DNA from: Ischnura elegans | Taxonomy: Eukaryota > Arthropoda > Insecta > Odonata > Coenagrionidae | Assembly: GCF_921293095.1 (NCBI RefSeq) | Contig: NC_060251.1 | Span: forward strand, 64,683,585-64,747,584 | Reading direction: 5' to 3' | DNA length: 64,000 nucleotides | Shown: in pieces, positions 5,301-58,308 of the stretch | How positions within the stretch are numbered: position 1 is the stretch's first letter | Layout of the letters: every line of letters begins with the position of its first letter | Made by a program: the position numbers and the translations under genes | Notes under the pieces: model-generated | Database searches by the model: none | What the model saw: the letters and a program-made list of their open reading frames with translations, nothing else | What the model was told of the DNA's origin: nothing

Positions 5301-6532
5301 AATGTCTGTCCAGAAGATTCTACTAAATCCATGCATTCCAACAGAGCAGCAAATGAGACATCGAGAAGATTGACTGAACACACTTGATTCAAACGTTAAC
5401 TATCAGAATGAGATAAAACAAATGAATCTTAACAGCAAACATCACCACGGTACTAAGGTCCTCCTAAGTGCAACCTCAATGACCTGAACCTGTTAATAAT
5501 GTTTGGTTCAAATATTTAATGTTTCCACATTTTACCACAACATATCAAGTATTTATAAAAAGAGCTATGATAAAGCTTCTATTTCAGATGCCAATTAGCA
5601 TCATGGTCCTTAGTACAATTAAATCTGACTAGCTCCGTGAGAGCTAAGATTATACACGATGAATTTGTCATGTCTTGTGCCAACTGAAAAACTTATCCCG
5701 AGTCATGGTTACAGCAGAGACATTTCTCCTTAAAAAGAAAGAAAAATGACTTCGCCTGTGTGAATACTGAGAGCAAGTTTTTCCTTTCTCTAGTAATTTG
5801 GCATTAACAACACTGGATAAGTACCTTCCTGACAGTGTACCTAAGCACAATAACAAAAGGGGGAGACAAGGTTACCACAATTCTCAACTATTTTCAAAGC
5901 AGTGCAGCTACTCTTACAGGCTTTCGTAAGCCTTCAGTGATAAAATATAATTTTTGGTAGTTAATTTACGGTCTATAAGAGATCCACCTCCATAGCAAAA
6001 ATTTGATAATTTTAACCTCATCATCCAGCACACCATAAGGCAGACCATCAACCTAGAGTTACTCCCAGACAAATAAAGACAAGGGTAAAATTAACCAAGA
6101 GGGGTTAGGCACTACATACAAATACCACCATAGCAAAACTTAATGTGAAACTTAGCAACATCCTCCATCATTAAAAATTTCCTAAAGGCTGTTATAAAGC
6201 TGGGAATGTTACCTCAGACAAACTATGTTGAAATTGCTAGAACGTGAGCTTGAAATTGTAGAAGGGGCAACTTTGCTGCCTCACATCCACACATTCCACC
6301 ACTTGCATGCAATTTGGATTGGGTCTTTGTACATACATCAGATTGTGCAATGACACCTTGGGTTAAACTGCCTTTACAATTAAAATGCCATTTCTAGAAT
6401 AATAAATGATAATTCCCCTGAAAAGTAAGGGTCTACTGATAGCATTACCCAATACCACCACATTGTTTATAACAAAATTGAAACAGCTTCACTAGGCAAA
6501 TAAATTATTACAAGCATTAGCGCGATTAAATA
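2339..6532. other. Intergenic DNA without recognised genes
   Basis: About 4 kb of A+T-rich sequence with only short, unconvincing open frames (for example 4243-4515 and 5061-5387). It contains an imperfect hairpin at 4297-4341, with arms ATGCATGAAC/GTTCATGCAT and an inner ATAGTA/TACTAT pair. Nothing else could be assigned. It lies downstream of the 3' end of RpS8. Confidence 0.5.
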
Positions 6533-6578: not shown

Positions 6579-9101
6579 TTATTTTCCTTTCTTGGCCTTA
6601 ATTTTTCTCATATAAAATTCTAACTCCTTCCCTTCCAAGATGTAACCATCAGAACGTCCACATTGGCCTGGACGACTGGAGACACATGCTGCAAAAGAAC
6701 ATTAATAATGTTAAGGACGGCCATTACCAGCTGTGACTGCATATGAAACTAGCATCTAACTCAGAGTAACTATGACATGCTATTCATCGGCTAAGAGGTT
6801 AGCTCAAAACGAGTGCACCCCATATGAATAACCTCGCATTAAGAAATTATCATCATTGTCATTATCTCAATAAATCTATGCTATAAGAGAACATACCCAA
6901 AATCCTAGCAGTTTGAAACTGCTCCTCCAGAGCTGGTTCTAATTTAGCGAGTCGCTGTCTTGCCTTGTACTTCTTTTCTACCTTCTTTGAACGCTTCTTG
7001 TTGAGGACAGCCTCTTCTGCCTCGGTCTGAAAAAGATAGCAGTCATTTATAACAGCTCCACATCCAGAAACCATATATAACTTCAAAGAAATCATCAGTT
7101 GCCAGTCATAATCATTTCTATCATATGACACACAAATTAATCATCATTTTAATAACCTCTTAATGAAAGAATTTCAAGTTAAGAGGCAACCCTCCCTGTT
7201 TCACTCCCATTACATTTAAATGATAGTTGCCAATACAATCAAGAGAAACCAGTAAAAACACGAGGTGAACACTAGTTGCCAAGCGTTATTATCTTAAATG
7301 CATTAAAATTTATCCCCAACTCATGCAAGTCCACAAGTTTACGTATCTTATTCGGTCCTCCATTTACCAGGCTGGAATCTCTACAATCTCATAATATCAA
7401 TCGTTTGGTCAGCACTGTTACTTTCGAAAATATTTCAACATAAGCCAGTACACCAATTCGAAAAAACAGCTCATTGAAAGTAGCTATCAAAAAGCCCAAT
7501 ACACAACATGCTAAGAAATAAAAAATCACATTTTGAGAGCGTCTGTTTACTAAGACACTGTGATCACTACTCTTAATAATGGGGTTCATGTGTCATGACC
7601 CTGTAAGTGCACAAAATAATAACATGCAATTTTACACGAAGGATTTACGAAAACTAAGTTCTTACTTATTCTTACCAATTAACATAACCATGACAGACCA
7701 ACTGTCGCATTCTTAATCATTATAATTATCAAAATGCCGAAGAAACACGGATATGAACAATAACCTAAGATCATAATCCTAGGCCTCAAAACAAACTCAA
7801 GTAAAAATACTAACCAACTTGGCGCCCTTCTTCCTTCCCAAAGGTAAAATATAGTGCGACTCGTACCACTGCCGGAATGGGGTAGCATCAACAATAACAA
7901 TAGCGTTCTTTACAAGTGTCTTCGTTCGCACCAATTCATTGTTCGATGCGTTGTACACGACGTCAATAATACGAGTCTTCCTCGTACAACCTAGAAAGAA
8001 ATAAGGGAGTGAGATTTGGCATTGGTTACCCACACTAAACACGACGACGCAAGATTTCAGATTAATGTTTGACCTCACAACTTTCAGAGTAGGTAAGGTT
8101 ATGTTCATCACGTGGGTGGGTAAAATCCATACATAAGTATCATTTCTGAAGCCTAGTGCAGTATAACCATGCACAAAACAATAGTGAAAGTAAGCCGAGA
8201 GTTATCTATACTATTGCAAGAGGCTTATTAAGCCGAAATAAGAGTCAAGGAAAAGCAGGGTGAACATATAATTCGGCAGAATACTTACATTCCGAACCCC
8301 AAGAGAAGTTTCCTTGGTCAAGTCGCAACGCACGGTATTTCTTATTACCACCACGTGTCCTGACAGTGTGAATACGTTTAGGTCCAAGCTGAAAGTAAAA
8401 TTCAATAGAATTTAAAGACGAAATACAAACACATGTTTCTTATCAAATATAAGACCTCAGCACGTTAGAGGTTATAAACCCTCATCATTTTCAGGTTAAG
8501 CTAAAAAGCAATGTCATCATATAAAAGGCAAACAGAGGGGCAGAAAGAAATGACATATACCTTAGTATTCGCGGCAGGTCGTCCTAATTCGAACTTCCTC
8601 TTCTTCCGAAGAGGCTTCCTCTTTCCTCCAGTGGCCCTCCTCTTGTGCCAATGGTCTCTGGAAATACCTATAAGAAAGCAATGAAGCCTTAGAAAAGAAA
8701 CTTGGAGCTATTTCCAGCTATTTTACCCACGATTTTCCTAAACAATATATGTTTATTTAATGTGGCACACTTCAATTTTTTTCCGGCGAAAAAGTAAGAA
8801 ATAAATAACGCCAGGATCACGTTTTAATAGATTATTATTAAGGAGTTATCTTATGACTAGAATATCGTGACAACAAATACATGAACGTATGCTATTCTTT
8901 ACACGTGTAACGAATGGTTGCGGTCGCCTATTTATAAAGCGGTAATTAAGGAATATCATAGAAGATCGTACGAAAGTAAATACATAAATAACTTATAGTA
9001 CATTAAGTTTGGATATTTAAAGTAAAATCAGTCAAGAAAACACACTTCCATTGCAAGGATGATTGAGGATTGATCGTTAGCTACACGGAGTACTTACCCA
9101 T
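6579..9101 (-). CDS. RpS8: 40S ribosomal protein S8 (eS8), six coding exons
   Basis: Component of the small ribosomal subunit, acting in the cytoplasm after nucleolar assembly. Exons on the minus strand are 9101-9098, 8667-8561, 8388-8289, 7990-7815, 7026-6897 and 6688-6579. All five introns are GT-AG and the joined frame is 627 nt, giving 208 residues, the usual length for animal eS8. The protein begins [12 protein letters not shown], carries the basic [14 protein letters not shown] stretch and [19 protein letters not shown] in the centre, and ends KIKAKKGK. The first exon holds only ATG plus one base. No frameshift or stop is seen, so this looks like the functional host gene and not a retrocopy. 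Fip1 is divergently oriented about 0.9 kb away. Four introns hold box C/D snoRNA candidates, as RPS8 does in vertebrates. Confidence 0.97.
6761..6856 (-). ncRNA. Box C/D snoRNA, U46 (SNORD46)-like, in RpS8 intron 5
   Basis: C box ATGATGA is at 6856-6850 and D box CTGA at 6764-6761, 96 nt in all, with a C'-like CGATGAA in between. Directly upstream of the D box is GTCATAGTTACT, complementary to the conserved 28S rRNA stretch AGTAACTATGAC next to the R2 target region. The fifth nucleotide before the D box pairs with an adenosine, which would be the predicted 2'-O-methylation site. Human SNORD46 is also encoded in RPS8, is similar in length and is known to target this part of 28S rRNA. The D box ends 72 nt before the 3' splice site. 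The terminal stem is weak. The rRNA match is from memory of a very conserved sequence. Confidence 0.78.
7095..7147 (-). ncRNA. Candidate box C/D snoRNA in RpS8 intron 4
   Basis: ATGATGA at 7147-7141 and CTGA at 7098-7095 bracket a 53-nt unit whose D box ends 68 nt before the 3' splice site. The possible guide ahead of the D box is ATTATGACTGGCAA. Internal C'/D' boxes are poor (ATGATTA is C'-like). The rRNA target is unknown to me. Support comes mostly from the same position as in the other introns, and it could be chance in A+T-rich DNA. Confidence 0.4.
8057..8111 (-). ncRNA. Candidate box C/D snoRNA in RpS8 intron 3
   Basis: GTGATGA (a standard RTGATGA C box) is at 8111-8105, a D'-type CTGA at 8087-8084 and a final CTGA at 8060-8057. 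The final box ends 66 nt before the 3' splice site. The C' box would be the weak TGTGAGG. Possible guides are ACCTTACCTACT before D' and TCAAACATTAAT before D. I cannot assign an rRNA target. At 55 nt it is at the short end for this class. Confidence 0.45.
8457..8520 (-). ncRNA. Box C/D snoRNA with perfect C, D', C' and D boxes in RpS8 intron 2
   Basis: C box ATGATGA is at 8520-8514, D' CTGA at 8494-8491, C' ATGATGA at 8488-8482 and D CTGA at 8460-8457. The spacers of 19, 2 and 21 nt fit the geometry of a double-guide C/D RNA. The D box ends 68 nt before the intron's 3' splice site, which is the favoured distance for intron-processed C/D snoRNAs. Guides would be CTTTTTAGCTTAAC (before D') and TAACCTCTAACGTG (before D). 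I do not recognise their targets. The terminal stem is short or external. Confidence 0.68.
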
Positions 9102-9990: not shown

Positions 9991-12900
9991 ATGGCGGATG
10001 ATTCCGGTAATGAAGACCAGTGGCTTTATGGCGATTCAAATCAGGAAGCAGTAGAGAATGGCAGTAAGGAAGAGGAGAACAATGATAATGCCCCGGAAGC
10101 TCCACCGGGTGAAGAACCGGTGATTGAATCAAGGGAAGAAGAGGTAAGATTCTGTCATGCCAATATCAGTATCTAGCCTATTTGCAATGAGCAAGACATT
10201 TATGACAAATTTTCTGCTCTAGAATCCTATTCCTGCGGATCGTGAAGAAGGGCAGTTAAGTGCAGAAGAGGAGCAACCGGAACAAACAACCCAGCAAGGT
10301 AAGTTTACCGTCATGTAATTCTTTTGTTGCTTTTTGTATGTGTTTCACTTTCGTGCTTCAGTAGGCGTAAGAGATGAAGCTGAAATTAATGGGCGAAGAG
10401 GAGTAATTTTCTGTGTTCTTAGGAATAATGTCTTGACTCATGGTTTTGGCCAAGGTTTTATTAATGTTGGTAACATGATTCCAATTATAGAAAACGAAAA
10501 TGAGGAGGAAGACGACGACAGTGATGATGATGATGTTCATGTCACAATTGGTGATATTAAAACCAGCCCTACGTACACAACTCTGAACCTGAAACGTGGA
10601 CCTCTGCCATCAGCTGCAGGAGGGGATAAAGCCAAGGTTAGTAATTAATCATGATTCGCTGTGTACTTACATCGCCTTTTATTTTTTATTATTTTTTAAA
10701 ATTATTATTTAGTCTGATTCTTTCAAACTGTAATCGAGAAGGATGTTGGTATAGTTTGAAAGAGGGGGGAAATTGATATGTATATATGATAATTATATGT
10801 TCTAATGAAGTGGTCTACTGGTAATTTGAGTGGGGGACGGGCTGGCATGAATAGTATAGATTTCCTAATTAACCTACCTTAACCAATATATTTAGTGTAT
10901 TACCTGGTTTTGATAATTATCCTTCCATACAGCTGATTTACATCTGTACTTACCCTTTGATTGCTCTGTTATGTATTTGTATTCTGCAATATGCACTCTC
11001 ATTTTCTCTTGTAAGAAAAATGTGTATCTCGAGTTAAGTGATGTATATTGTGGTAGTTAGTGTTATGACCAAGTATGCATGACAGAATTACAAGACAGGT
11101 AAAGGGTGTGAGGAATATGGCTCAACGACTAGTCATGAGGAGTCCGAAATACAGAGTAGACATATGTGCATTGAGGAAGGAATATGAGATTAGGCTGGGG
11201 TGGTTGGAGAAGAATTGAGAAGTTGAGGTGGGCTGAGAGGAAACTTCTGGTGGATATTAAGAGGAGACAAAGAATATGAACGAGTAGCATGCTAAATGGT
11301 AACGGTATGCCCATAAACCAAGCTAGAGGGAAAAATATTAGGTAAGAAGGGAAGGGTAGGAAAAAGGATTTTATGAATGGAATCTGGAGGATTGTATTTA
11401 GCAACTAAGCTGCTCAAGCCACTTATTTCATTATTTCGAATTTGTTTCTAAGTGGAGGATTTCTTGTGGAAGAGGAGGAGAACATAAGGGAAGAAATTAG
11501 ACGCCCTCGAAATATTGGAAATATAATATACTTAGGGATGTGCGAGTAGTACTTTTTGATCTTGAGTCGAGTTGAAAACTACTTGCGAGTATCGAGACGA
11601 GTATGGTAATTCCTGGACCAGGCAGCACAACTATGCTCCAACATATCGATGGCTAAGTTCTAACAACATGTACTGATCTCAAATTGGGCCGGTTTGAGAC
11701 AGGTATCTTATACAAAATGTAATGACATTTAAAAAAATAAAATACAAGCAAAAACAACTCTTTGTTTGCAAGTGAAAGCTTCTTTTTCATTTTATGAAAT
11801 TTTGGTTTTTAATTTCAGTACACTTACAAGTAAAAAAATAATCGTTTTTTTGTTCTCCTGAAAAGTTGCTATTTTTGAGATGTGTGTCGTTAGAACTTAG
11901 CCATCGATATCCTCTTTTTCCAACCCCATAGTTAATATTCTATTTTAAATGCTTAGCTTCGAGTGAAAAGGAAAGGATAATGAGGAACCTTGATGGTAAT
12001 TTTGTCAGAGTTAGGAGAAAGATGAAAATAAATGCATATTAAACAGGTCCATTAGCACAATTGAAATGAATTAGCCTTAAGTAATATGTCATCAATTTAA
12101 TTAGTATATGTATTCATACCGCTGGGAAGAGCTCTGAGTAAAAGCATTTGCACAACTGTAGCAAATATTATATCTACATAAATGAAATATGCAACAGCTT
12201 TCTAATTCTCATGCAGAAAAACCAATTGTTCTACATGCTCAGGCAGCAGGTTTTGACGTCTCCATGTTACAATATTTCTGCCTGCAGAAAATTGTCTTTC
12301 TCTACACAATTGTGTGGCTGGCCAAATTGTTAAAATTGCAATCTATGAGAACCTTGGGAATTCTTATAAAAAATAATATCAACAATTTTTATGGATCATT
12401 AATCTTCATGGAATTTAAGTGAACAAAATATAGAATTTAGCTTTAGCTTCGTAGACCAAAAAAAAATTTTCTTTATTTCTCGCTCTGTTTAATCAAGCTT
12501 AGGAACTCTTGTTTTGTAATTTCAAGAAGGAAACTAAATGTAACAAAGGAATAAATGAAAAATATTGGACGTTGGAAATATTGAAAATAACATTGGACGT
12601 TGGCAGTAATAAAAATGGCTAAAATACAGCACCATTCGTGAAGTTGTTACGTCAAACTCTCGAAAAACTGTAATTGTCCTCTAAAACCTACAAATTACAT
12701 TCTTTTCTCATAAATCTTAACAGCTTTTATGTATTATTGCGGTGCTTGAGTAAAGAAAGTAGGATAGGGTATAAAAGTATCACATACGAAAGTATGAGCA
12801 ATGCAGTGGTCCACTCCGATTACTCTGAATATGCCGCCAGTTCGGAAGACAATCGGCCGCCTCGGCTGACAAAAAGGTATTCGGTGCCCACGTCGGCCAC

Positions 12901-18900: not shown

Positions 18901-21900
18901 GGTTTGGCAGTCGAGGACTTTACCCCACCGCCACCGAGGCCGGCAAATGAATACCCACCGAAATGCCGTTGCTAATTCGTGGAACTTGGCAATAAATTTC
19001 ATTTTGTAACTACTGGGACTAAGGTTTTTAATTTCGTAGTTACGTCTTTTCCTATAGGTTAAATTGGTGTTTCCGTTGGGACCAACGATTTGATTCATAA
19101 TAATGAGAGCTTCGTAATAACGTTGTTCGTATTAACGAGAGTCTACTGTAGTCATAAGCCTTAGCTGCAGTTTTTGTCTATAAATATAACTTTCTTGAAT
19201 TTAGGATAGTACTTATTGCATGTATAGGATTACTTTCACATGACCCATACTAGACATTAAGAGATGCCAACATACCTTTTCAGATGCCATCATGCCTACC
19301 AGCTGTCTTTGTTAGGCTCTGATGAACAGAATTAACAATTGGTATAACTTCAGGTGCACTTGCTAAGCTTTTGTTTCTACTCTATAGATAAGTAATATAT
19401 CAACAATTGTTTGTATGCATGACCACTGTACATAGGTAAGTTCAACTGGAACGCTTAGCTCTTGAGAGGTACATGAAACAGCCCTTCGCTGTTCAAGTAA
19501 TATTTCAAGCATATTTAGGGTACTGTTCCAAGGAGTTGGCTCATCCTGCACTAACTTATGCTGTGGCACTCCTAGAACTTTCCAGGACTTCTTCATAATC
19601 TTATTGGCTTGTATGGAGTGTTTATAATAACCAACTTAACGTCTACAATTTTTAAGCAGATTATTGATTTCATTGTTGTGGAATGTGCCATCTTTGACCA
19701 CTAATAGGGTAGTTACCTTCATCAAAGAAAACGAAAGGCATTGATTGCGATTTGTTACCCAACGTTAGTGTATTCATAATATGAAAATTATTTGGTTTTA
19801 GAAATCGAAGTCTAGACGAATGTTAATGGTAAATTTTAACCTCATTTGAAAAAGGCCTGATTGGCACACATGCGATGCCATTCCACGTGACGTCACAGGG
19901 AACTAGATTGTATAGGAGCAGTCAGGAGTTTTACGTTGTCTGAGATTACCAATGTATGCATGTGGCACAGAGCCGAGGGAAACATCTCTTAATAATCGCC
20001 TATTAAAATTGCCTTAGGTCTGAAAGTTTTCTTTTTTGTAGGGTATTAATAATACTTATTTGAGACAAGCGCTACCTGCTAGCAGGGTACTCTGGTACCT
20101 GCTTGCAGCCTGCATCGTAGCAGCACTCATATCCTCGCACAAAGGTGGTCTCACATGGCGACAGCAGGAACCAGAATGATGTCACATGGGATTTTCCCAG
20201 AATTCATACTTAGCCATCGCGTTTTCGTGCTCTTGAAAATGTTCACTTTTCCTTTAATCGCGAGAAATAGATGTCATGATTTAAAAATCTAAAAGCGTGA
20301 AGTACGTGCTCCAGAAGTGATAATCTTTCGATTTAGGCAATTAAAAAGAAATGGGAAACCACCCTATGTGCAATGCATAGAATATGTTCAAATTTTCCTT
20401 TTTCCATCGCAGGTATAAAGTTTCTGCCATTGCCCTTAACTGTGAAATTAACTTTTTCAACTGAATTCCATTCTTCAAAACAATCACGAAGAAAATTATT
20501 TATGTTTCCTCCTATATGAATTCCCACAGTAAATGGGATAAGAGCCAAAGAAATGTGCTTTAGTTCATACTCTGGTGTTATAAAATGACCTGACAAGGCC
20601 AAGTAGTCTTCATTAGCTGGAGATGACCGCAATGTAAATATGTAGTAATGCTTAAAAGTTTTTGGATAACTGATAGTATTAGCTCACAAACTGAGTTTGT
20701 TGTAGTCTTATAGGTTGTTGGTATGGCTACATATGAAAAATATTTTGACCCGGTTTTGTTCATTGTGGTTCTAAGCACAGGCGGTCCTCGACTTACGTAC
20801 ATTCCGAATTGACACCTTTTACTTGACTTTCATACGCTAAATTAAGACTTTCGAAAGTTAGTCTGTAATTTTTTGCTGTTCCTGGGATGTTTACTGCGCA
20901 TCCCAACATTAACTGTTTCATACGGTAGTACAGTGGAACTTGGTTAGTACGTTCCTCCTTAGTACGTTTTCCTCCTTAGTACGGCAATTTCCCTCGGTCC
21001 CGGTACCATCCGAACAAAATACAGGTAAAAGAATTTGGTTAGTACGTTTGAAAAAATTGCGCTTTCCTGGTTAGTACGCTCAATTGCTTGCCGTGACGCA
21101 ACCCGCAATTCGTTCTCTAGTGTCTTCTTAAGGGTCGCAAACGTCTGAATTCATGATTTAATTTATAATTATTAGCCATTTACATTCTTCCATTCATTCC
21201 ACATCTCTTTCTTCTACCGTAATTTATCCAAATGCATTTCTGAATTCTTGTGACGTGCTGAATAATAAAATGCGGCCATTTTTGGGGAATTTCTGACTAT
21301 GAAAAAGTACAGCCAATAAGAAGCCCCAATTTTCCCCACCCCGAGCTCCTCACCTTCTGTTGCCTTTGGAGCGCTTGGGAGTGCCCACTGCTGCGCATAA
21401 AGTTCGTGAGTGGGCAATTGTTGCTATTGCACGAGTTATCATGATGAAGAAATGAGTCTTAACGGTATTAGACAATTCCCACATTATCTAAAGCAGTACT
21501 GCTCCATAAACTCGATGTCGTGCGTATTTACTTGACTACTGTTGCGGGAGCAGACGATCCTCTGGATCTCCACGCGAAGCTTAGCTTAAAAATACTTGAT
21601 CTCGGAACGAAAGCAGACGACATTAGACAAATTTTGAAAGTAAATTTCAACTGTTTAATATAAAATTTTCTAGTAATTACGTCGTAATCTAATAATCTTG
21701 CGTGTCATCAGTCGATATATCGATCGATTTTACAATCGAAATGGTATCATTCCAGAAGGGAATGTCTACGGCTGTTGCCGTAATTTGAAAGTCAATATAA
21801 TTTTGCCCAATTTTTATCATGTTTAAAAAACCAGTCGACTTACTCCGGGTCGTTGTTATATTCTCCGAGTACGCTGTGAGAAAGAAAAATGACTTGTCTT

Positions 21901-24900
21901 CGCTTGTGTAATCACAAATATAGCACCTGTTTTTGCCCATATCTGCAATTTGAGCTTCGAGAAAGGTGAATTTCCTAATCCATTGAAAAAGGCAGTAGTC
22001 ATTCCAGTATTTAAAAAAGGGGAACGGCTCAATATTGAAAATTATAGGCCTATTTCACTACTTTCCATACTATCTAAAATAGTTGAGAAGTTGATGAAAA
22101 AAAGACTCCTTAGCTATCTCCATAAAGTAAAATTCTTTAGTGTTAATCAGTTTGGTTTTTTAAGTGGTAAAAGTACTGAACACGCATTAATGAATTATAT
22201 GACTGATGTTTTTGAAGGTATTAATGCCAAGAAACGAGTTGGGACTATTTTTATTGACATCAAAAAAGCATTCGATTCATTAGACCACAAAATACTGTTA
22301 CAGAAATTAGAAATGGCTGGCGTAAGAGGTATAGCTCTTAACTGGTTTCGGAGCTACTTAACTAATCGTTCACAATGTGTAAAGGTAAAAAACTCGTTTA
22401 GTGCCTTTAGCAGTATCAATACTGGTGTACCTCAGGGTTCTGTATTGGGCCCTATTCTCTTCTTAACTTATATTAATGATTTATGTAACCTTGAATTAAA
22501 TGGTAAGATAACAACTTTCGCAGATGATGTGGCCTTAAATTATGTGTATTCTACCTGGGATGAAGTTGTTAATGCCATGCAGCATGACTTATCCTGTCTA
22601 CGACACTGGTTTCAATATAACGGCTTGGAACTAAGCGAAAGAAAAACACAATGTATGTTTTATGATATTTGTGACTATTATAATCTTGATGTCAAATTAC
22701 AGTATCACACCTTAGACTGTTCAATGCACTCTTGTACTTGCCCTGTTATTAAAATGACAAAAGAAGTGAAGTATCTGGGAGTAACATTAGATTATCGCCT
22801 GAAATGGGATAAGCAAATCGCAAATGTAAGTGCTGTTTTAAAGCGTAGTCTCACCAAATTTTATTTTATCCGTAATAAATGCCCTCTCTTTGCCCGAAAA
22901 ATGATTTACCATGCTTTGGTACACTCCAAGTTGGATTATGGGCTTACTTGTTGGGGTGGAGCTTATTTTAACACCTTAAAATCAGCCTACTTCGTGCAGA
23001 AAAAAATTGTTAGACTATTATTACTTAAAAAGCGTTACGAACATTCCCGTCCTTTATTCATTGAACTTAACATACTCCCGCTAAGATATATGTATTGCTA
23101 TAAAGTGTTAAAAAATTTTTTTTTGCGTAGTGGATATAGCCCAAAAATTTTTGGGAGCTATGTGCTGTTTAATCCTCGCAGAGGTTTCTCGATCCCTATG
23201 CACAAGCCTAATTTAACGATGTATAAAAGGAGTTTTTTGTATATGGGACCAAAATTGTATAATATGCTACCAAATACAATTAAAGAGACAAATTGTTTTG
23301 GTAAATACAAAAGGTTGATACAGAAATGGATAATGACTTTTGAAGACATCGAAAAGCTATGGTAAAGGGTCGGTATATTGCAGAAAATACCCTAGGCATC
23401 ATATGTGTTGTACATTATAAGTTGTATCTCATCTTAAGGTCAGCTCTGTTATTATATTATTACGCACATGTATTTTTTTCTCAAGGTATTGTGTATTTTG
23501 GTTGTATGTGTTATCATTTCCGCAATTAATGAAAATTGAAGTTAGCCCAAACACAGGCTTATTGCCTTATGGGCTACCTTACTTCCTTGAATGGATGTAA
23601 TATTCTGTAAAAAAAAAAAAAAAATATGTATGCATGGAAGAATAAATTATTATTATTATTATTATTGTCTGAGCTTCACTCGTCCTCGTTCCGTAAATAT
23701 ATATAGGATAAATCACGGGAGATAGACGCCGTAATCATGAAATCGTCTCCGGGATGTCCATGAAAAATTGCGATTTTTATTCACGTGGTATTGTTTTTCA
23801 TGGTAGAGCTCATTTCCTTGATTTTAAATGTGAAAAGAGTTCAGGAAGGCGATCCTATGAGAACTACCGATAGTAATTGTAATTATGACGACTTTTTCAC
23901 TGATTGCAATAACCCCGACTGCTTTTATTTACTTTCCTCGTTAGTACGTTTTCCTGGTTAGTACGTTCATTTTTCGTGGTCCCTTCAGAAACGTACTAAC
24001 CAAGTTCCACTGTATATGCGGACAATACGAACGTATATGATTGAGGGCAGAGTTGACTTTAATCAAGGTGATTTTTTTTAGAAAGACACTGCTTGCTATA
24101 GGCTCCTTTTTCAAGAGTAGAGAAAGCTGTAGTGCAACCTTCATTAAAAGTTGACTATACGCCTCCACACAGCTTTCAATAAAATTAATGAATGAAAGTG
24201 CTTCTTCTTAATAGTGTTTTTCTATTCGAGTGCTGTTTAATTCATGTGCAACATCTACACTTTCCGCAACGATATTGCATGAAATATTATCTGAATTCAG
24301 AGTGTCTTCTGTATATTTTTGAATAACATGCAAAATATTCTCAATGTTTCGACTTACGTACACATTTTCAGGAACACATTGTGTGCAAAAGTCTGGGACC
24401 ACCTGTAATTGATTTAATCCCTAAATCCTTTATCTTCCACTGGTGTAAAGGGTTGTTGTCTGTTGCAATCATTCTGGCTGTCAGTTCGGTGGTTTTAATT
24501 GCGCTGTAATGAAGTGCATGATAAAGTTTTTTCTTCTTAATCATATCACGTATAGTTGGCTGCATATTATGTGAACTTGGTAATGCATCACCTGTAGTGG
24601 AAGAATATGCAGCTTTGTTCGCAAATGTGGGCGTAGCCTTGTGTAATGCAGAAACTTTACCACAGTAGTTTGCTAAAAAATTAACCTGCTTAGGAGTATT
24701 TTCCTCACTGATTTCTGCTTTGAGATTAACTCTTCCAAGAGTTGAAAGACTACTAGATTCGAAGCTTGAATCAATCTCAAAGCAAGGTAATGATCCTAAG
24801 TCCTCGGTGTAGCACTTGAGCTTGGCTGCAACGCATCCAACGGCAGACAGTCCTCCTCATCTGGTGTAGGCACTAACTGTGTCTTTTTAGCCGAGTCAGG

Positions 24901-44912: not shown

Positions 44913-46196
44913 ATGGCATGAGAGCATCGATGGAAGGCCAGGTAAAAGCAAACACGCATACAACTCTTGACTGAATACAAGACAGGACATTGCCACGAGA
45001 ACAGGAGCATGACAGGACACACAAATGTCTACTAAATTGACAAAACGATGTGCCAATTCGAAATTATGATGGTTTTTGTGCTACTATAATTCTACAACAT
45101 AAATCATTAGCCAAAACGTTTACTCCTCATTTGAAAATTGAAGACCTGTGTACTCAATGGAGGCATGTTACGGCAGTGTTTCAGATAAAAGTGTATATCA
45201 TGATTATAATTTTAGCATAAGAAACTGAGAAGTGCCTCACATCTTCGACTGAAATGTATCATAAATAGACTATTCAAGCGCAGTCATTGCAAGTTTAAAA
45301 AAACTACATTTACCTAAGCCTAAAGTCATGAAATATGAGGGCATGGTGAATGCATTATCTGCACTATGATAGCAGTCCTTAATAAGTGTAGCAGTAAGGT
45401 GCAACAGTCATGCAAAAACACTGAGATATCTAAGCTCAGATCTAATGGAACACACAACCCAGGAAAGATGGTGGGAACATGGCACTAACTCGTTCAGCAT
45501 CAGTGGATGGGCATTCAAAAACACATAGTCATTCAAAGCTCTTAACTTCATACAACTTAGACCACAGGCATACAATGACAAAAAATGAACATGAAAGGAC
45601 ATAGAAATACATTATGCCTTACCAAATATTTAATTAACGACAGCCTGAAGACCTGAAATATAACGGAATGGTTAATTGATGAACTTACCCCAGGATGGTA
45701 GGCCTCAAAAAGTGAAGCAGTGAGATAGGTTATGTTATGCGGCATTTACAGTAAACCTAGATAAATATCAATTTACAAGGAATATGCAACTTACGAAGCA
45801 ACACTTGAACTAACCATATGTTACTACTACTAAGCTTACATCTACTACATCATTTCTTTTCTCTATTGCTTAATTTAAATAGTGTAGTACAACCTAATCC
45901 TAAAACAATAACTTAAAATTATTATCAATGGTGCATCACTGCATGTAGGAAAGTCAATGTAGTAAGTGCTTGTTGAAGGGAACTGGGAAGAATACCCAAG
46001 CCCCCAACACTCTTTCATGACACTTACAAAAATAGTCTCACAAGCAAGGATGTAGTCGAGGAAAACTGTAGAAGGCACAGCAAGACCCCAAACGGAGACT
46101 ATTTGCCAAAGGCTTTTGCATGGATGAACCTTTTTATCCTCATTGATGAGTCCATCATCAGATACCTCCAGAATTCTACAACGTGGACAGTGGTAC
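44913..46196. repeat. Duplicated block 2, copy A (P-element 3' part)
   Basis: Matches 58686-59966 on the same strand. It contains the last part of the P-type transposase and about 950 bp of non-coding sequence beyond it. The match ends inside GTGGACAGTGGTACCACAGC, where copy B is joined to a LINE. Confidence 0.85.
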
Positions 46197-47461
46197 CACA
46201 GCAAGAGTTTCCGTAGAACAACTCCCACTGCATACAGAAAAGCTTGCCGTTCACCAAGGTCCCATCGCATTAAATCAGCTACCTTGTCAGCATCATCAGG
46301 TCCAAGGACACTGGTATTTGAGGAACACACAGGTGAAGGTTGCAGACCCAGACCCACAATGTCCCTAATAACTAGCATGCAGTAGTCTGGGTCTAACTGA
46401 CTTAATGTGACCGACTGACCCGAGGGACTTGACATGATCATTGAGCGGTAACTCAGATGTTTGTATGCCTGTTGGAATTGGTATGCTGTTGGATCTTTGC
46501 AGCCACCACCTCTTTGGCGAATTTGGTCAAAAAAGTTTTTTAGGCAGTCTTGATTTAATCTTCTCAGACTAAGTTGAGTAACACCAAAATTGCTGCGAAG
46601 ATAATTACAAAGCATGGTGGTTGCATTTATGGTAACCTTCCAAACTTTGAAGCACTTGATACGACCAGTCACACCATTATGCTCCTGGTCGTATGCTCTC
46701 AAGCTTTCTAAGAGAGCAAGGGAGCGTGCTAATAAGTTGAGGTGGTTGCTGCCCACGGCCATGGGTGTTTTCAGCACTTTTGTTGTAGGCTTAACAGTGC
46801 TATTGAAACAGTCGAATAATTGGTGCATCAGGCCAACGAATTCGGCTGTCCTAATAATACTGGTATGCCCTTCACTTGCCACCTCCAACATGGACGTTAC
46901 AGTGTGTGAGAAGACTACAGCAGAATGCAACCTTCATCCTTTGGAAATTGTTGGGGTACATACAAGTAGGGGTAAGTTTAGGGGACTGCCTAAATTTACG
47001 CTTAATATCTCGCTGGTACACCATTATAATATCCTTCCAGCTAGCTCTGAATTCCCCAAACTCAAAATTTTAGTTGAGAAGGTTGTTCCTAGAGTTTTTA
47101 GAAGGTGACGGTAGTGATTCCTTCATCCTCTTAACTTAAAACAGGATAAGATCCGTACTGATTTATTGATGAAAGAATTAAATAAATAATAGAAGCAATT
47201 GATGTGTTTCATTCATCACATTGTTTGAAAACCTTGGTCCTTATACACATTTTCTATCCTCCAGATTATTTTAAAAGGCTGAAATAAAAAAATCTATTAG
47301 TTAAATTCAGTAAGTAGTTAATTTGTTATCAAATGTATCTTATAAACAAACATTTACCTCTGGAAATATTCATCAATAAGGGTCCATCGCACTCTGCCCT
47401 GATTTTATGCTCCTGCCTGAATTTGATGTCCATTCGCCTCCCCCCCTGCCAAAAGATCTTC

Positions 47462-49168
47462 TCATGGGGCAACCATGGGGATCTCATCTCCGGCCCTCCG
47501 AAGGATGTTGTGCAACACTGTTGTGGCTGCTATTATAGGAAATGTATTCTCCTGCTTCACATTCACACCAACAGCTAATATCGGGAATCTTCTCTTCCAA
47601 TATCCAAACAATCTCTCCACAACATTCCTTGACCTAATCTGAGATTCATTGAAAAGATTTTCTTGAAGCGTCCTCGTAACATTTAGGGGAGGCATGAGGT
47701 TTGTCCTGCATGCATATCCAGCATTCACAAGTAACACTGAGTCGCCGTATGCACCCTGCTCAAATAAGGCTCTTTGGTTGCAGTTGTTAAATATGCTGCT
47801 GTCGTGAGTGCTGCCTGGCCACCTTGCCACAATATTAGTAAATTCCATCTCGGCACTGCAGATGGCCTGTACATTTAGGGAAAAGTATCCTTTCCTATTC
47901 CGAAATCGTTCAGCTTCATCTCCACCTTCAAGAAAAGATAAGCGCCATGTGACAATTTTCCCACTCCTAGGTATCACAATACATTACTCACACGTTGAAA
48001 TAAAAGAAAATGCTCTGCTCACAGTAAGTAACTATAACATTGTGCAATATTTGATTTTTATACAGAGATATGAATATAATGGTAATGTGAACTATTATAG
48101 AAAATATCAACTTGTAGTGCTCGCCCCCTCCTTTAGTGAAGGGAGTCGAACCCTAACATTGCCCTTTGGGTTCTTGCCTCTGGGTGCCAGAAGTCGTAAT
48201 AAAAAATGCAAGGGTTCATTCTCTTAAGATAGCGAGAGAAACGACACTTTACCTTCAAGGAGAGATATCGGGCTCGCGGGACGTTCGGCTCTCGGACAGA
48301 CGGGAGTGGTAAGGACTGCTATTCGCTGTGACGGCTGCGCGACTGCTGGCGTACCTGTCCCTCGCTTAGGAGTTCGAAGGTGCAGTCCGGCAGTATAGTC
48401 GTGGCCTCAAGGGCGCGGGGTTTCCCGGGTCGGCAAGCTGCACGGCGGAGAGTACGGAACTCACAGAGATGGCGCCTCACGGAAAAGCTGGCAGCAGGAC
48501 ACTTCGGAGATGGCACTTCCTGACCCCACACACACCAATTCACTCCGTACCACACTGACTGCTGCCAATTCCATAGAGTTTATATATCTATATTTTGGAT
48601 CCCGTAAGGCATCACCCCTCCTCTCGGTGACCTAAAGGAGCGGACCCTCCCTCTGTTTTAATTTAGAACGAGAGCGCCCGTTGTCACCGAAATGGTGACA
48701 AAGTTCCGTTTTCTCCTAGTAATAGCTTGCCTACCGATTTCTATTGATGGTCTTTAGCCGCTTCTACTGCCCCCAGCCATTCCTTCCCACGCCCCGTCTT
48801 GCCCCATGACCTCCTTTTCTCAATTGGCCGCAAATATATCATGCCCTCCTTTCTCAATATATTTGTGGCCACTACAAACTCATGCATGCTTATCATACTG
48901 TGAAACTGCAGGCCCTGAATACAATGGCAAAGGATGGACATACCTGGAGATCTTATTCTCACATGTATGCAATCCATTTCCCCGATGGCCTTTGGAAACC
49001 TGGAAATGCCATTTGAGCATCCAGGATTTCCTGTGGGCTGTTTGGCATTCTAATATGTGCTGGACGTAAGGCAGCAGTGGCACAACTAACCCTGTGGATG
49101 ATTCTATGGGCAGTCGACTTGCTAACTCCTGAAAAGTCTGCCAAACATAGCTTATCACCACCAGTGGC
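47462..49168 (-). pseudogene. Harbinger transposase (HARBI1-like) 1, two exons
   Basis: Exon 49168-48944 carries GVSKSTAHRIIHRVS and MDCIHVRIRSP, with the first catalytic Asp. A GT-AG intron leads to exon 47935-47462. The join gives SPGGDEAERFRNRKGYFSLN in frame, followed by RWPGSTHDSSIF (second Asp) and RNVVERLFGYWKRRFP (catalytic Glu). One frameshift lies before MDC. The triad is complete, but the frame is broken and the N-terminus is not identified. It lies within the P-element relic. The 1-kb intron contains a G+C-rich stretch (48200-48640). Confidence 0.85.
48118..48200 (-). other. tRNA-like B-box sequence
   Basis: The minus strand has GGGTTCGACTCCC, a good pol III B box, with a poor A-box candidate TGGCACCCAGAGG about 35 nt earlier. 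It lies in the intron of Harbinger 1. It could be a SINE fragment, and I do not call a tRNA. Confidence 0.3.
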
Positions 49169-49680: not shown

Positions 49681-50111
49681 CTTCTTTAGGCTATACCATC
49701 TTGACTTAAATTAACTTCATCTCGCTGGGGACCTATGCATTGAGAATTGAATCTGTCTTTTTCCTCTCCTCGTTTTTGGCCAGCGTGGTCACCCCATCCG
49801 TTTTCTTATTTTCAATCACTTTAGCGTGGTCCTCCGCGAGTAATATTAGTAATTCTTTCTCTGCGTACGACATATTACTTTTCCTCCTCTTCAAAATTGT
49901 ACCGCTGCTATCCATAATCTTTGATATAATAGATGATGTAACTGGCAGTGAGAGGAGTTATGTGCTCAATTGTTCAATGACAATCGCTTACTTACAGTCA
50001 TTTATTTTTCCGACGTTAGAGGTATGAAAAATTCACCACCAAAATGATTTCTTCGCATTAACTCGGTTTTGGAAAACTTGGATAAAACGACGTCGGTGAA
50101 ACGCGATCCTC
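49681..50111. repeat. Duplicated block 4, copy A: Myb-like/P-element junction
   Basis: Matches 56031-56470 on the same strand. The block spans the start of a Myb-like gene and the adjoining P-element coding sequence, so this fusion existed before duplication. Confidence 0.8.
49733..49915 (-). pseudogene. Harbinger-associated Myb/SANT-like protein, N-terminal part (copy A)
   Basis: A 60-codon frame with AEKELLILLAEDHAKVIENK and KTDGVTTLAKNEERKK, the Myb/SANT-like DNA-binding type that accompanies Harbinger transposases (Naif1-like). It stops early compared with the copy at 56327-56040, which continues with DEWKKIAVGFN. Only the DNA-binding start is present. Confidence 0.75.
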
Positions 50112-52149
50112 CTAGAGTTTTTAGAAGGTGAAGGTAGTCATACAGGAAGTAAACCTTTTGTCCCCCAACAAAATAAAAAGGTTTCTTAATTGTAACACCT
50201 AGCTTTCTTTGAAGCTTGATGAAGTTTCTGCCTTGGTCAGAAACTGAGGCAGAATAACCAGCATTCGCCATTTCTGTTGTTTCCTCAGTTAAAATACCAT
50301 GAACAGTATTTACTTCACAAGCCCCAGAACCAAATATGAAGCCAATAGGATGTTTCCAATGCTTGCATAGTCCTCTAGCCATAAAAACCAAAGCACACTT
50401 AGCATTGACCTTCGTACATGCACCATTACCACTATCAACGTACCCTACTATTCTATCGCTACATCTATCATAAATTAAACCTTCCTTAATCATAACTTCA
50501 TCTAAATTTAAGACACATAATTTATCCTTATCATCTAACTTACTTGCTACCGTCCGCAGACCTTTCAAAATTGGATATGAAAGACCTGCTGTTTGCTTGA
50601 ACCCACTCAACCACCTACTCAGACGTGACACAATGTGAATGTTTAGTAACACCGCAATGTGAAAATTTGTCTTAGGGCTTTGTGAGACTTCCGGCTGTGG
50701 AATGCTAATGACAAAGCAGTAACTTTATCCAAATCATTCCACCTCCGGCTGAACTTACTCCTCTGACAAAGTTTCATATTACTTCTGAGCAATGAGAAGG
50801 CAGCTGGTGGTCAGGCTTTTTCCATTTTACCCGTGACATCATCAGATGTGGTGTTACCTCGCAAATGGTAATATCTATTACGAAGTTTGCACACCATTGC
50901 ACGGGATCTTTCACCCTCTCGATAACACGTTCCACGTAAATCGAGGCCTTTGCGATGTCCGAAGTAGCTAGCGCTTCAGCCTGTATTGTACACTCTGTGA
51001 GGAGGATATAAGTGGTTTTACTGAACATCCTCCAAAATTAAATTTGGGTTTTACAAAACTACTTTATTTCACTGGAAATAATCCCTAATTATTCTTTGTC
51101 GGACTTGAAGCCCAGCTCTGTGATTTTGTCCTGCTTGATAAGGGTCAGCATACATCCCATTTTCCTCCACGTTTACAGGAATTTCTCCCTCTGCCACGTT
51201 TCTTTCGATGCACATGTTGTGCAGCACACAGCAGGAGTTGATTATGTTGCTTGCTTTCTCCGGCATATAATGCAGGACTCTGTGCTTCAACAAGCATCTC
51301 CATCGAGCCTTTAGCACTCCATTGCACTGCTCTACTATGCTCCGGGCACGGCAAAGGCTCCTGTTGTATCTATCCTCTGGAGAATTAGGAATTATATCCC
51401 CTGCTATAGGGGTCATTAACCCTGGCTCAAGGGGGTAACCACTGTCTCCTGAAAAATTTGGAGAAGAGGAAGGAGAATTATTACCCATTATTCAGCAGGT
51501 TTGTTACCCTGAGTAAAATTAATTTTTTTTGTTGGATTTCAACACTATACCAGATTTAAGTGCATGTGTTACTTATAACTAATTATTAATATAGTCATCA
51601 GAGCGTTATGCAGGCAGTATGTATGTATTTAAATTTACAGAAGGGAGAGAACACGTACTGATTAGCCAGGCATTGAAATTATATCTCTCCTTCATCTGTA
51701 TAAGGCCCCGTCGTAATTCGGAATTGGCATAAATATATGCATCATTCGTGGCCCCTGGAAATCTTGTATTAACATTTAAAATTCTCACGTTAGAGTCGCA
51801 AACCTGGAAGAGGAACGGTTACGAATTACAAGGCAATACTTGACAATCATTAGAAAACTCATAAAAAGAAAAATACAATTACCAGCTGTACGTTTATGGA
51901 ATGGTATCTCTTGTGGTTATAATATTGCCTTTCCACATAAATAGGGTTGTCCACTGGTGGAGCAACTATAGCCACATGGGTGCAGTCTATAGCCCCTATT
52001 GCTCCTGGAAAGCCATACTTCTGGTAGAAACAGGAAAAAGTAAATTTTAATGATATCAGTTTTGGTATCAGGCGACAATTGCAATCTTTGAAAATCAGGG
52101 TCATTTAGATGAAAGCAGTCGTTTTGAGACTATGTATTAGAATGTGCAG

Positions 52150-57821: not shown

Positions 57822-58295
57822 GGAGCACCCATCGCCTCCGTCCTGCAAGCTCCCTGGAGACTCCGGCTGGCTAGAAATAAATAGGCAAGGAAGAGAAACC
57901 GTATCCCGTTCGTAAAGCACCAAGTGCATGACCCCGTGAAGAGGTCATGTGGCCGCACACTCTCTATTCTCCTTCCCTCTCACTCCCTGTGGCAGGGTTC
58001 CTTATGTCCTACAACAATAGTAAAAATGAAATTACTTGAGAGGATATTACGAGTAATGGAGCACCCATCGCCTCCGTCCTGCAAGCTCCCTGGAGACTCC
58101 GGCTGGCTAGAAATAAATAGGCAAGGCAGAGAAACCGTATCCCGCTCGGAAAGCACCAATTGCTTGACCCCGTGAAGAGGCCATGTGGCCGCACACACTC
58201 TATTCTCCTTCCCTCTCACTCCCTGTGGCAGGGTTCCTTTATGTCCTACAATAATAGTAAAAATGAAATTACTTGAGAGGATATTACGAGTAATG
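57822..58295. repeat. Tandem repeat, two ~235-bp units (copy B)
   Basis: Same array as 42085-42545, with the two units starting near 57822 and 58060. Units within B are as alike as units between A and B, so the array existed before the block was duplicated. Confidence 0.8.
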
Positions 58296-58308
58296 GAGCA
58301 CATTGTCC

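Follow-up and report, generated by a model that had tools for sequence, protein, structure and literature searches.

The RpS8 gene and its introns

The window, a stretch of 64,000 nucleotides from the damselfly Ischnura elegans (C6:64683585-64747584 of an assembly of 1.72 Gb in 110 contigs, which was also the genome searched), carries on its minus strand an intact gene for ribosomal protein S8 (RpS8, eS8), encoding 208 amino acids over six exons. Its identity is supported by a Pfam S8e match (E 1.2e-55) and by solved eS8 chains, which match it over the full length. The coding region extends from 6579 to 9101, the two outer ends having been counted by hand, and is interrupted by five introns, all read on the minus strand: intron 1 (9097-8668), intron 2 (8560-8389), intron 3 (8288-7991), intron 4 (7814-7027) and intron 5 (6896-6689). 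A genome search for paralogues of this intron region returned that region alone. Head to head with RpS8, on the plus strand, lies an open frame (10319-10648) without a Pfam match, which presumably contains a FIP1-like stretch.

Box C/D units at a constant distance from the acceptor

Introns 2 to 5 each harbor a unit with an exact box C (RUGAUGA) near its 5' end and an exact box D (CUGA) near its 3' end, all four on the minus strand. The intron 2 unit (8457..8520) has box C ATGATGA at 8520-8514 and box D CTGA at 8460-8457; that of intron 3 (8057..8111) has GTGATGA at 8111-8105 and CTGA at 8060-8057; that of intron 4 (7095..7147) has ATGATGA at 7147-7141 and CTGA at 7098-7095; and that of intron 5 (6761..6856), the longest, has ATGATGA at 6856-6850 and CTGA at 6764-6761. 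The distance from the end of box D to the acceptor is 68, 66, 68 and 72 nt in introns 2, 3, 4 and 5, respectively, exactly as the preliminary description had reported. The same description had placed RTGATGA 45-90 nt upstream of CTGA, which is correct give or take a few bases, the gaps between the boxes being 53, 44, 42 and 85 nt (60, 51, 49 and 92 nt from first base to first base). Its statement that intron 1 is without such a unit also holds, as this intron contains no RTGATGA and offers no box pair at the corresponding spot, even with one mismatch allowed per box.

The inner boxes are less uniform. Both are exact in intron 2 (D' CTGA at 8494-8491 and C' ATGATGA at 8488-8482), intron 3 has an exact D' (CTGA at 8087-8084) and a weak C', and neither is clear in introns 4 and 5. 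Terminal stems, assessed without a chance control, are external in introns 3 (possibly TTACCCAC/GTGGGTAA) and 5, bulged in intron 4 and weak in intron 2; those outside intron 2 are external, short or bulged.

The probability of such an arrangement arising by chance was evaluated with dinucleotide shuffles of all five RpS8 introns over 20,000 rounds, a unit being defined as a CTGA ending 60-80 nt before the intron end and 35-95 nt after RTGATGA. No intron carried a unit in 19,872 rounds, one did in 127 and two did in a single round; more were never reached, and four are observed. As a background, RTGATGA...CTGA pairs at any place and on both strands were counted in 12 loci of the same genome, which had been fetched for their rRNA pieces and hence are not a random sample, and one was found in 237,806 nt. 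The window without RpS8 yields seven such pairs in 121,600 nt over both strands, six of which come from one repeat at 10521-10527, the GATGAT repeat of the open frame at 10319-10648, and are chance pairs. Besides those of the RpS8 introns, the minus strand has two RTGATGA...CTGA pairs, at window positions 6024 and 49477.

Ribosomal RNA sequences available for target searches

The rDNA of the species is represented by one contig end (L021), which carries the 18S and 5.8S and breaks off after the first 773 nt of a 28S match. A 31-mer presumed to span the R2 site has no match in the assembly when up to one mismatch is allowed, and a second presumed 28S pattern likewise gave none. Because the 28S match ends at the contig end and these patterns were not found, other 28S targets were taken from dispersed, partly degenerate fragments and from presumed human cores. 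Six guides over the four units were compared with 400 shuffles of a set of 4,556 nt, composed of the damselfly's own 18S, 5.8S and 28S start together with presumed human 28S cores, from which much of the 28S is absent. Clusters at C14:18.43-18.47 Mb and C16:0.91-0.99 Mb (L003-L017) are made up of repeated, incomplete stretches of 28S surrounding the R2 target site, and pieces from either side of that site are found there in altered order.

Comparison of the guides with rRNA gave a clear match for intron 5, a probable one for intron 2 and a possible one for intron 3, as detailed below, and none for intron 4. In Rfam no match in the window reached a gathering score, and a permissive scan of the window yielded seven weak matches.

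The U46-type unit of intron 5

The box-D guide of the intron 5 unit, GTCATAGTTACT (6765..6776, minus strand), forms 12 perfect pairs with 28S AGTAACTATGAC. This target occurs in 28S fragments of the damselfly's own genome, and none of the 400 shuffled rRNA sets contained an equally good match. Pairing to 28S AGUAACUAUGAC begins at the base adjoining box D (guide position 1), and the predicted methylation site is the rRNA A opposite the fifth guide base from box D. U40/U46 and yeast snR63 constitute one functional class, which guides methylation of 28S AGUAACUAUGAC. Among the five RpS8 introns, the U46 guide core is present in intron 5 alone. The exact 15-mer TCATAGTTACTCTGA occurs at a single place in the 1.72 Gb, namely in intron 5, while its reversed control occurs at four; the lone place thus means that there is no second exact copy of the guide, and is not proof beyond chance.

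Three of the weak Rfam matches share the intron 5 element: snoR442 (E 0.077), SNORD46 (E 2.6) and GlsR7 of Giardia (E 7.3), the last of them with 15/15 identical letters. The SNORD46 model (RF00218) scores the unit at 17.4 bits, below its gathering score of 40, and since this is far under the cut-off, the unit is called U46-type by its guide and its host, and not as a member of RF00218. What it has in common with SNORD46/U46 is the host, which is RPS8 in chicken as well, the box-D guide UCAUAGUUAC, the 28S stretch to which this guide is directed and a C-to-D span of about 100 nt. The differences lie in the body, which in the damselfly has diverged to under the Rfam cut-off, and in the base adjoining box D, which is A in the Rfam consensus and U in intron 5. 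RNAfold predicts an inner hairpin both in the intron 5 unit (GAGGTTA...TAACCTC) and in the SNORD46 consensus, whereas Rfam's own model is without it.

Candidate targets of introns 2, 3 and 4

The box-D guide of intron 2, ACCTCTAACGT (8462..8472, minus strand), makes 11 Watson-Crick pairs, at guide positions 2-12, with the damselfly's own 18S at GACGTTAGAGGT (933-944), which is probably its target; the predicted site is 18S U937, and 3 of the 400 shuffles were equally good. An alternative pairing of 10 bp at 18S 1021-1030 begins only at guide position 4. For intron 3 a possible target is suggested by its box-D' guide CCTTACCTAC (8089..8098, minus strand), which forms 10 pairs with 28S GTAGGTAAGG, a presumed human core (equalled in 9/400 shuffles), and nine pairs with a degenerate 28S copy of the damselfly's own genome, the predicted site being the G of 28S GUAGGUAAGG. 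With six guides tested, these two matches are modest and serve as leads, not as proof.

The remaining guides gave no target in an rRNA set that is short of much of the 28S: the D guide of intron 4 was equalled in 309/400 shuffles, and the intron 2 D' and intron 3 D guides were at chance level (264/400 and 320/400, respectively). For intron 4, a GU-rich pairing located upstream of ATGA was set aside as weak.

Nature of the four units

From box anatomy and placement it is proposed, with good confidence, that each of introns 2 to 5 of RpS8 contains a single intron-processed box C/D snoRNA gene; these are very likely real and well placed, and of an ordinary kind. An alternative is that only some of the units are real, those of introns 2 and 5 being genes and those of introns 3 and/or 4 being decayed or chance look-alikes. 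It draws on the weak C' and the modest match of intron 3 and on the lack of clear D'/C' boxes and of a target in intron 4, but the boxes of both introns are exact and stand at the rule distance, a unit arises there in only 8 (intron 3) and 50 (intron 4) of the 20,000 shuffle rounds, and orphan C/D snoRNAs are common, so that this alternative is unlikely. That the units are a compositional accident of AT-rich introns, with no snoRNAs at all, would agree with the lack of any Rfam match in the whole window at gathering scores, yet it can be dismissed as barely conceivable given that three introns were reached in 0/20,000 shuffle rounds and that a 12-bp U46-type guide sits in the right place.

Units with U38- and U39/U55-type guides in other hosts

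The guides of the other vertebrate RPS8 snoRNAs were sought in the RpS8 introns and in the genome. Neither the U38 guide core AGTTCTGCT nor the U39/U55 guide core CCTTGGAGA is present in any of the five RpS8 introns with one mismatch allowed. In the genome the U38 pattern CCAGTTCTGCTNCTGA occurs at two places (none for the reversed pattern). At one of them, C6:93967398, the pattern belongs to a complete C/D unit, whose host intron is part of an hnRNP-type gene with two RRMs; the unit matches Rfam SNORD38 with E 7e-7 in a 261-nt scan, its 39.7 bits falling just below the cut-off of 44, and its D' guide pairs over 10-13 nt with the damselfly's own 28S fragments in the eight pairings listed. The other place, at C1:36072789, has the second exact U38-type guide next to a CTGA, with RTGATGA 117 nt upstream and no CTGA within the next 200 nt.

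The U39/U55 pattern CACCTTGGAGANCTGA, which was built partly from the presumed target site, occurs at three places (one for the reversed pattern). At C8:106242596 it belongs to a C/D unit hosted by an RpL7 intron, with the guide CACCTTGGAGA adjoining box D; the best Rfam match of this unit is Afu_294 (E 1.2e-5), followed by snoZ101 (0.27), and SNORD39 is absent among its three matches. The other two places, inspected by eye, have no box C in 110 nt.

In both the hnRNP-type gene and RpL7, the distance from the end of box D to the acceptor is exactly 68 nt. As these two units were picked by their guides and not by their position, they constitute independent support for the spacing rule.

A proposed splicing-coupled processing route

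According to a review (PMC8162545) that cites Hirose and Steitz for position-dependent intronic assembly, most mammalian C/D snoRNAs occupy a conserved position upstream of the acceptor, the optimum lying some 50 nt before the branch point, and AQR/IBP160 couples their assembly to splicing. The constant short distance from the acceptor is common to that mammalian system and to the odonate, where the four RpS8 units, on which the finding is based, have it at 66-72 nt and the two units found by guide at 68 nt. By analogy, the tight spacing of the damselfly fits the same coupling to splicing, and would suggest that an odonate uses acceptor spacing as mammals do. The proposal of the preliminary description, that C/D snoRNA units are placed here by a splicing-coupled rule, is backed by the box anatomy, by the U46-type guide of intron 5 and by the guide-found units. 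The spacing also offers a handle on C/D snoRNAs that fall under the Rfam cut-offs.

The following model can be proposed. If the units are expressed, the snoRNP would assemble during or after splicing of the RpS8 pre-mRNA on the C/D core, which lies some 68 nt ahead of the acceptor, and the assembled particle would shield the unit while the remaining intron is broken down. The RNA from intron 5 would then guide 2'-O-methylation of the 28S adenosine in AGUAACUAUGAC, as U40/U46 and snR63 do, the intron 2 RNA would probably act on the 18S uridine and the intron 3 RNA possibly on the 28S guanosine, whereas that of intron 4 may be an orphan or have a target that went unrecognised.

History of the U46-RpS8 association

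In chicken, RPS8 is described as the host of five snoRNAs, intron 1 carrying U39/U55, introns 2 and 3 carrying U40/U46, and introns 4 and 5 carrying U38a/b (PMC2653536). Among the vertebrate RPS8 guides compared, only the U46-type shares the host RpS8 in the damselfly, and it does so in intron 5 and not in intron 2 or 3. The U38/SNORD38-like unit, at 68 nt from the acceptor, has an hnRNP-type host, and the U39/U55 guide unit sits in RpL7.

A mobile view of snoRNA location has been put forward by Hoeppner and Poole, who found no deep stability of intron location across 44 eukaryote genomes and proposed that snoRNAs move freely among broadly expressed hosts (PMC3511168); neither 'rps8' nor 'snord46' appears in the main text of that survey (PMC3511168). 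Ribosomal protein genes are ordinary snoRNA hosts in insects: 27 of them are given as hosts in Drosophila (PMC2246290), and a preprint on Drosophila S2 cells reports a share of 30% (73/239) for ribosomal protein hosts (PMC13228274). The term 'rps8' was not found in the accessible text of that preprint (PMC13228274), nor is it present in the main text of a paper on sponge ribosomal protein introns (PMC3412847). No title on RpS8-hosted snoRNAs of invertebrates stood among the literature matches listed, from which no absence is claimed.

Under one reading, to which we assign about even chances, the U46 guide would have resided inside RpS8 since before the split of insects and vertebrates, shifting between introns and never leaving the gene, while U38 and U39/U55, at one time or another its neighbours there, changed hosts. 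Almost all chicken snoRNA paralogues are reported to derive from within-gene duplication (PMC2653536), which explains how the intron could change without a change of host. The alternative of convergence, in which vertebrates and the damselfly line each acquired U46 in RpS8 by an independent move, ribosomal protein genes being favored hosts, seems to us doubtful, though a serious contender. It is in keeping with the different introns (5 in the damselfly, 2 and 3 in chicken; PMC2653536), with the U38- and U39/U55-type units in other genes, which indicate that hosts do change, and with the mobility for which Hoeppner and Poole argue (PMC3511168). Against it, a second landing in RpS8 would by our estimate be an event of roughly a few percent, with some hundred broadly expressed genes as possible hosts and three guides allowed for, and the within-gene origin of most chicken paralogues means that an intron shift needs no change of host (PMC2653536).

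A stronger form of common descent, in which RpS8 has held the same set of snoRNAs since before the insect/vertebrate split, is very improbable. It had been suggested in the preliminary description, which considered that both number and host were kept and counted four snoRNAs in vertebrate RPS8. The host and one guide, U46, are indeed common to both, but the count in chicken is five (PMC2653536), and with the U38 and U39/U55 cores in 0/5 damselfly RpS8 introns and their guide units in other genes, the vertebrate set has not been kept as a set; for U38 and U55 this reading is largely refuted.

Should the U46 guide have descended within RpS8 in this way, its link to this gene would represent a rare case of deep persistence, at odds with the view that snoRNA-host associations drift freely. 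U46 in RpS8 provides a concrete pair with which deep host retention can be tested against the 'constrained drift' model across animals.

Other features of the window

Elsewhere in the window, a reverse transcriptase frame of 490 amino acids without stops lies on the plus strand at 21893-23365 (Pfam RVT_1, E 4.3e-36). Transposase pieces of the DDE_Tnp_4 type are located on the minus strand at 47465-47983 and 51072-51491, and TNP-like RNase H parts, also on the minus strand, at 45878-46933 and 50005-50724. At 57822-58301, a 236-bp unit is present in two tandem copies that are 96% identical.
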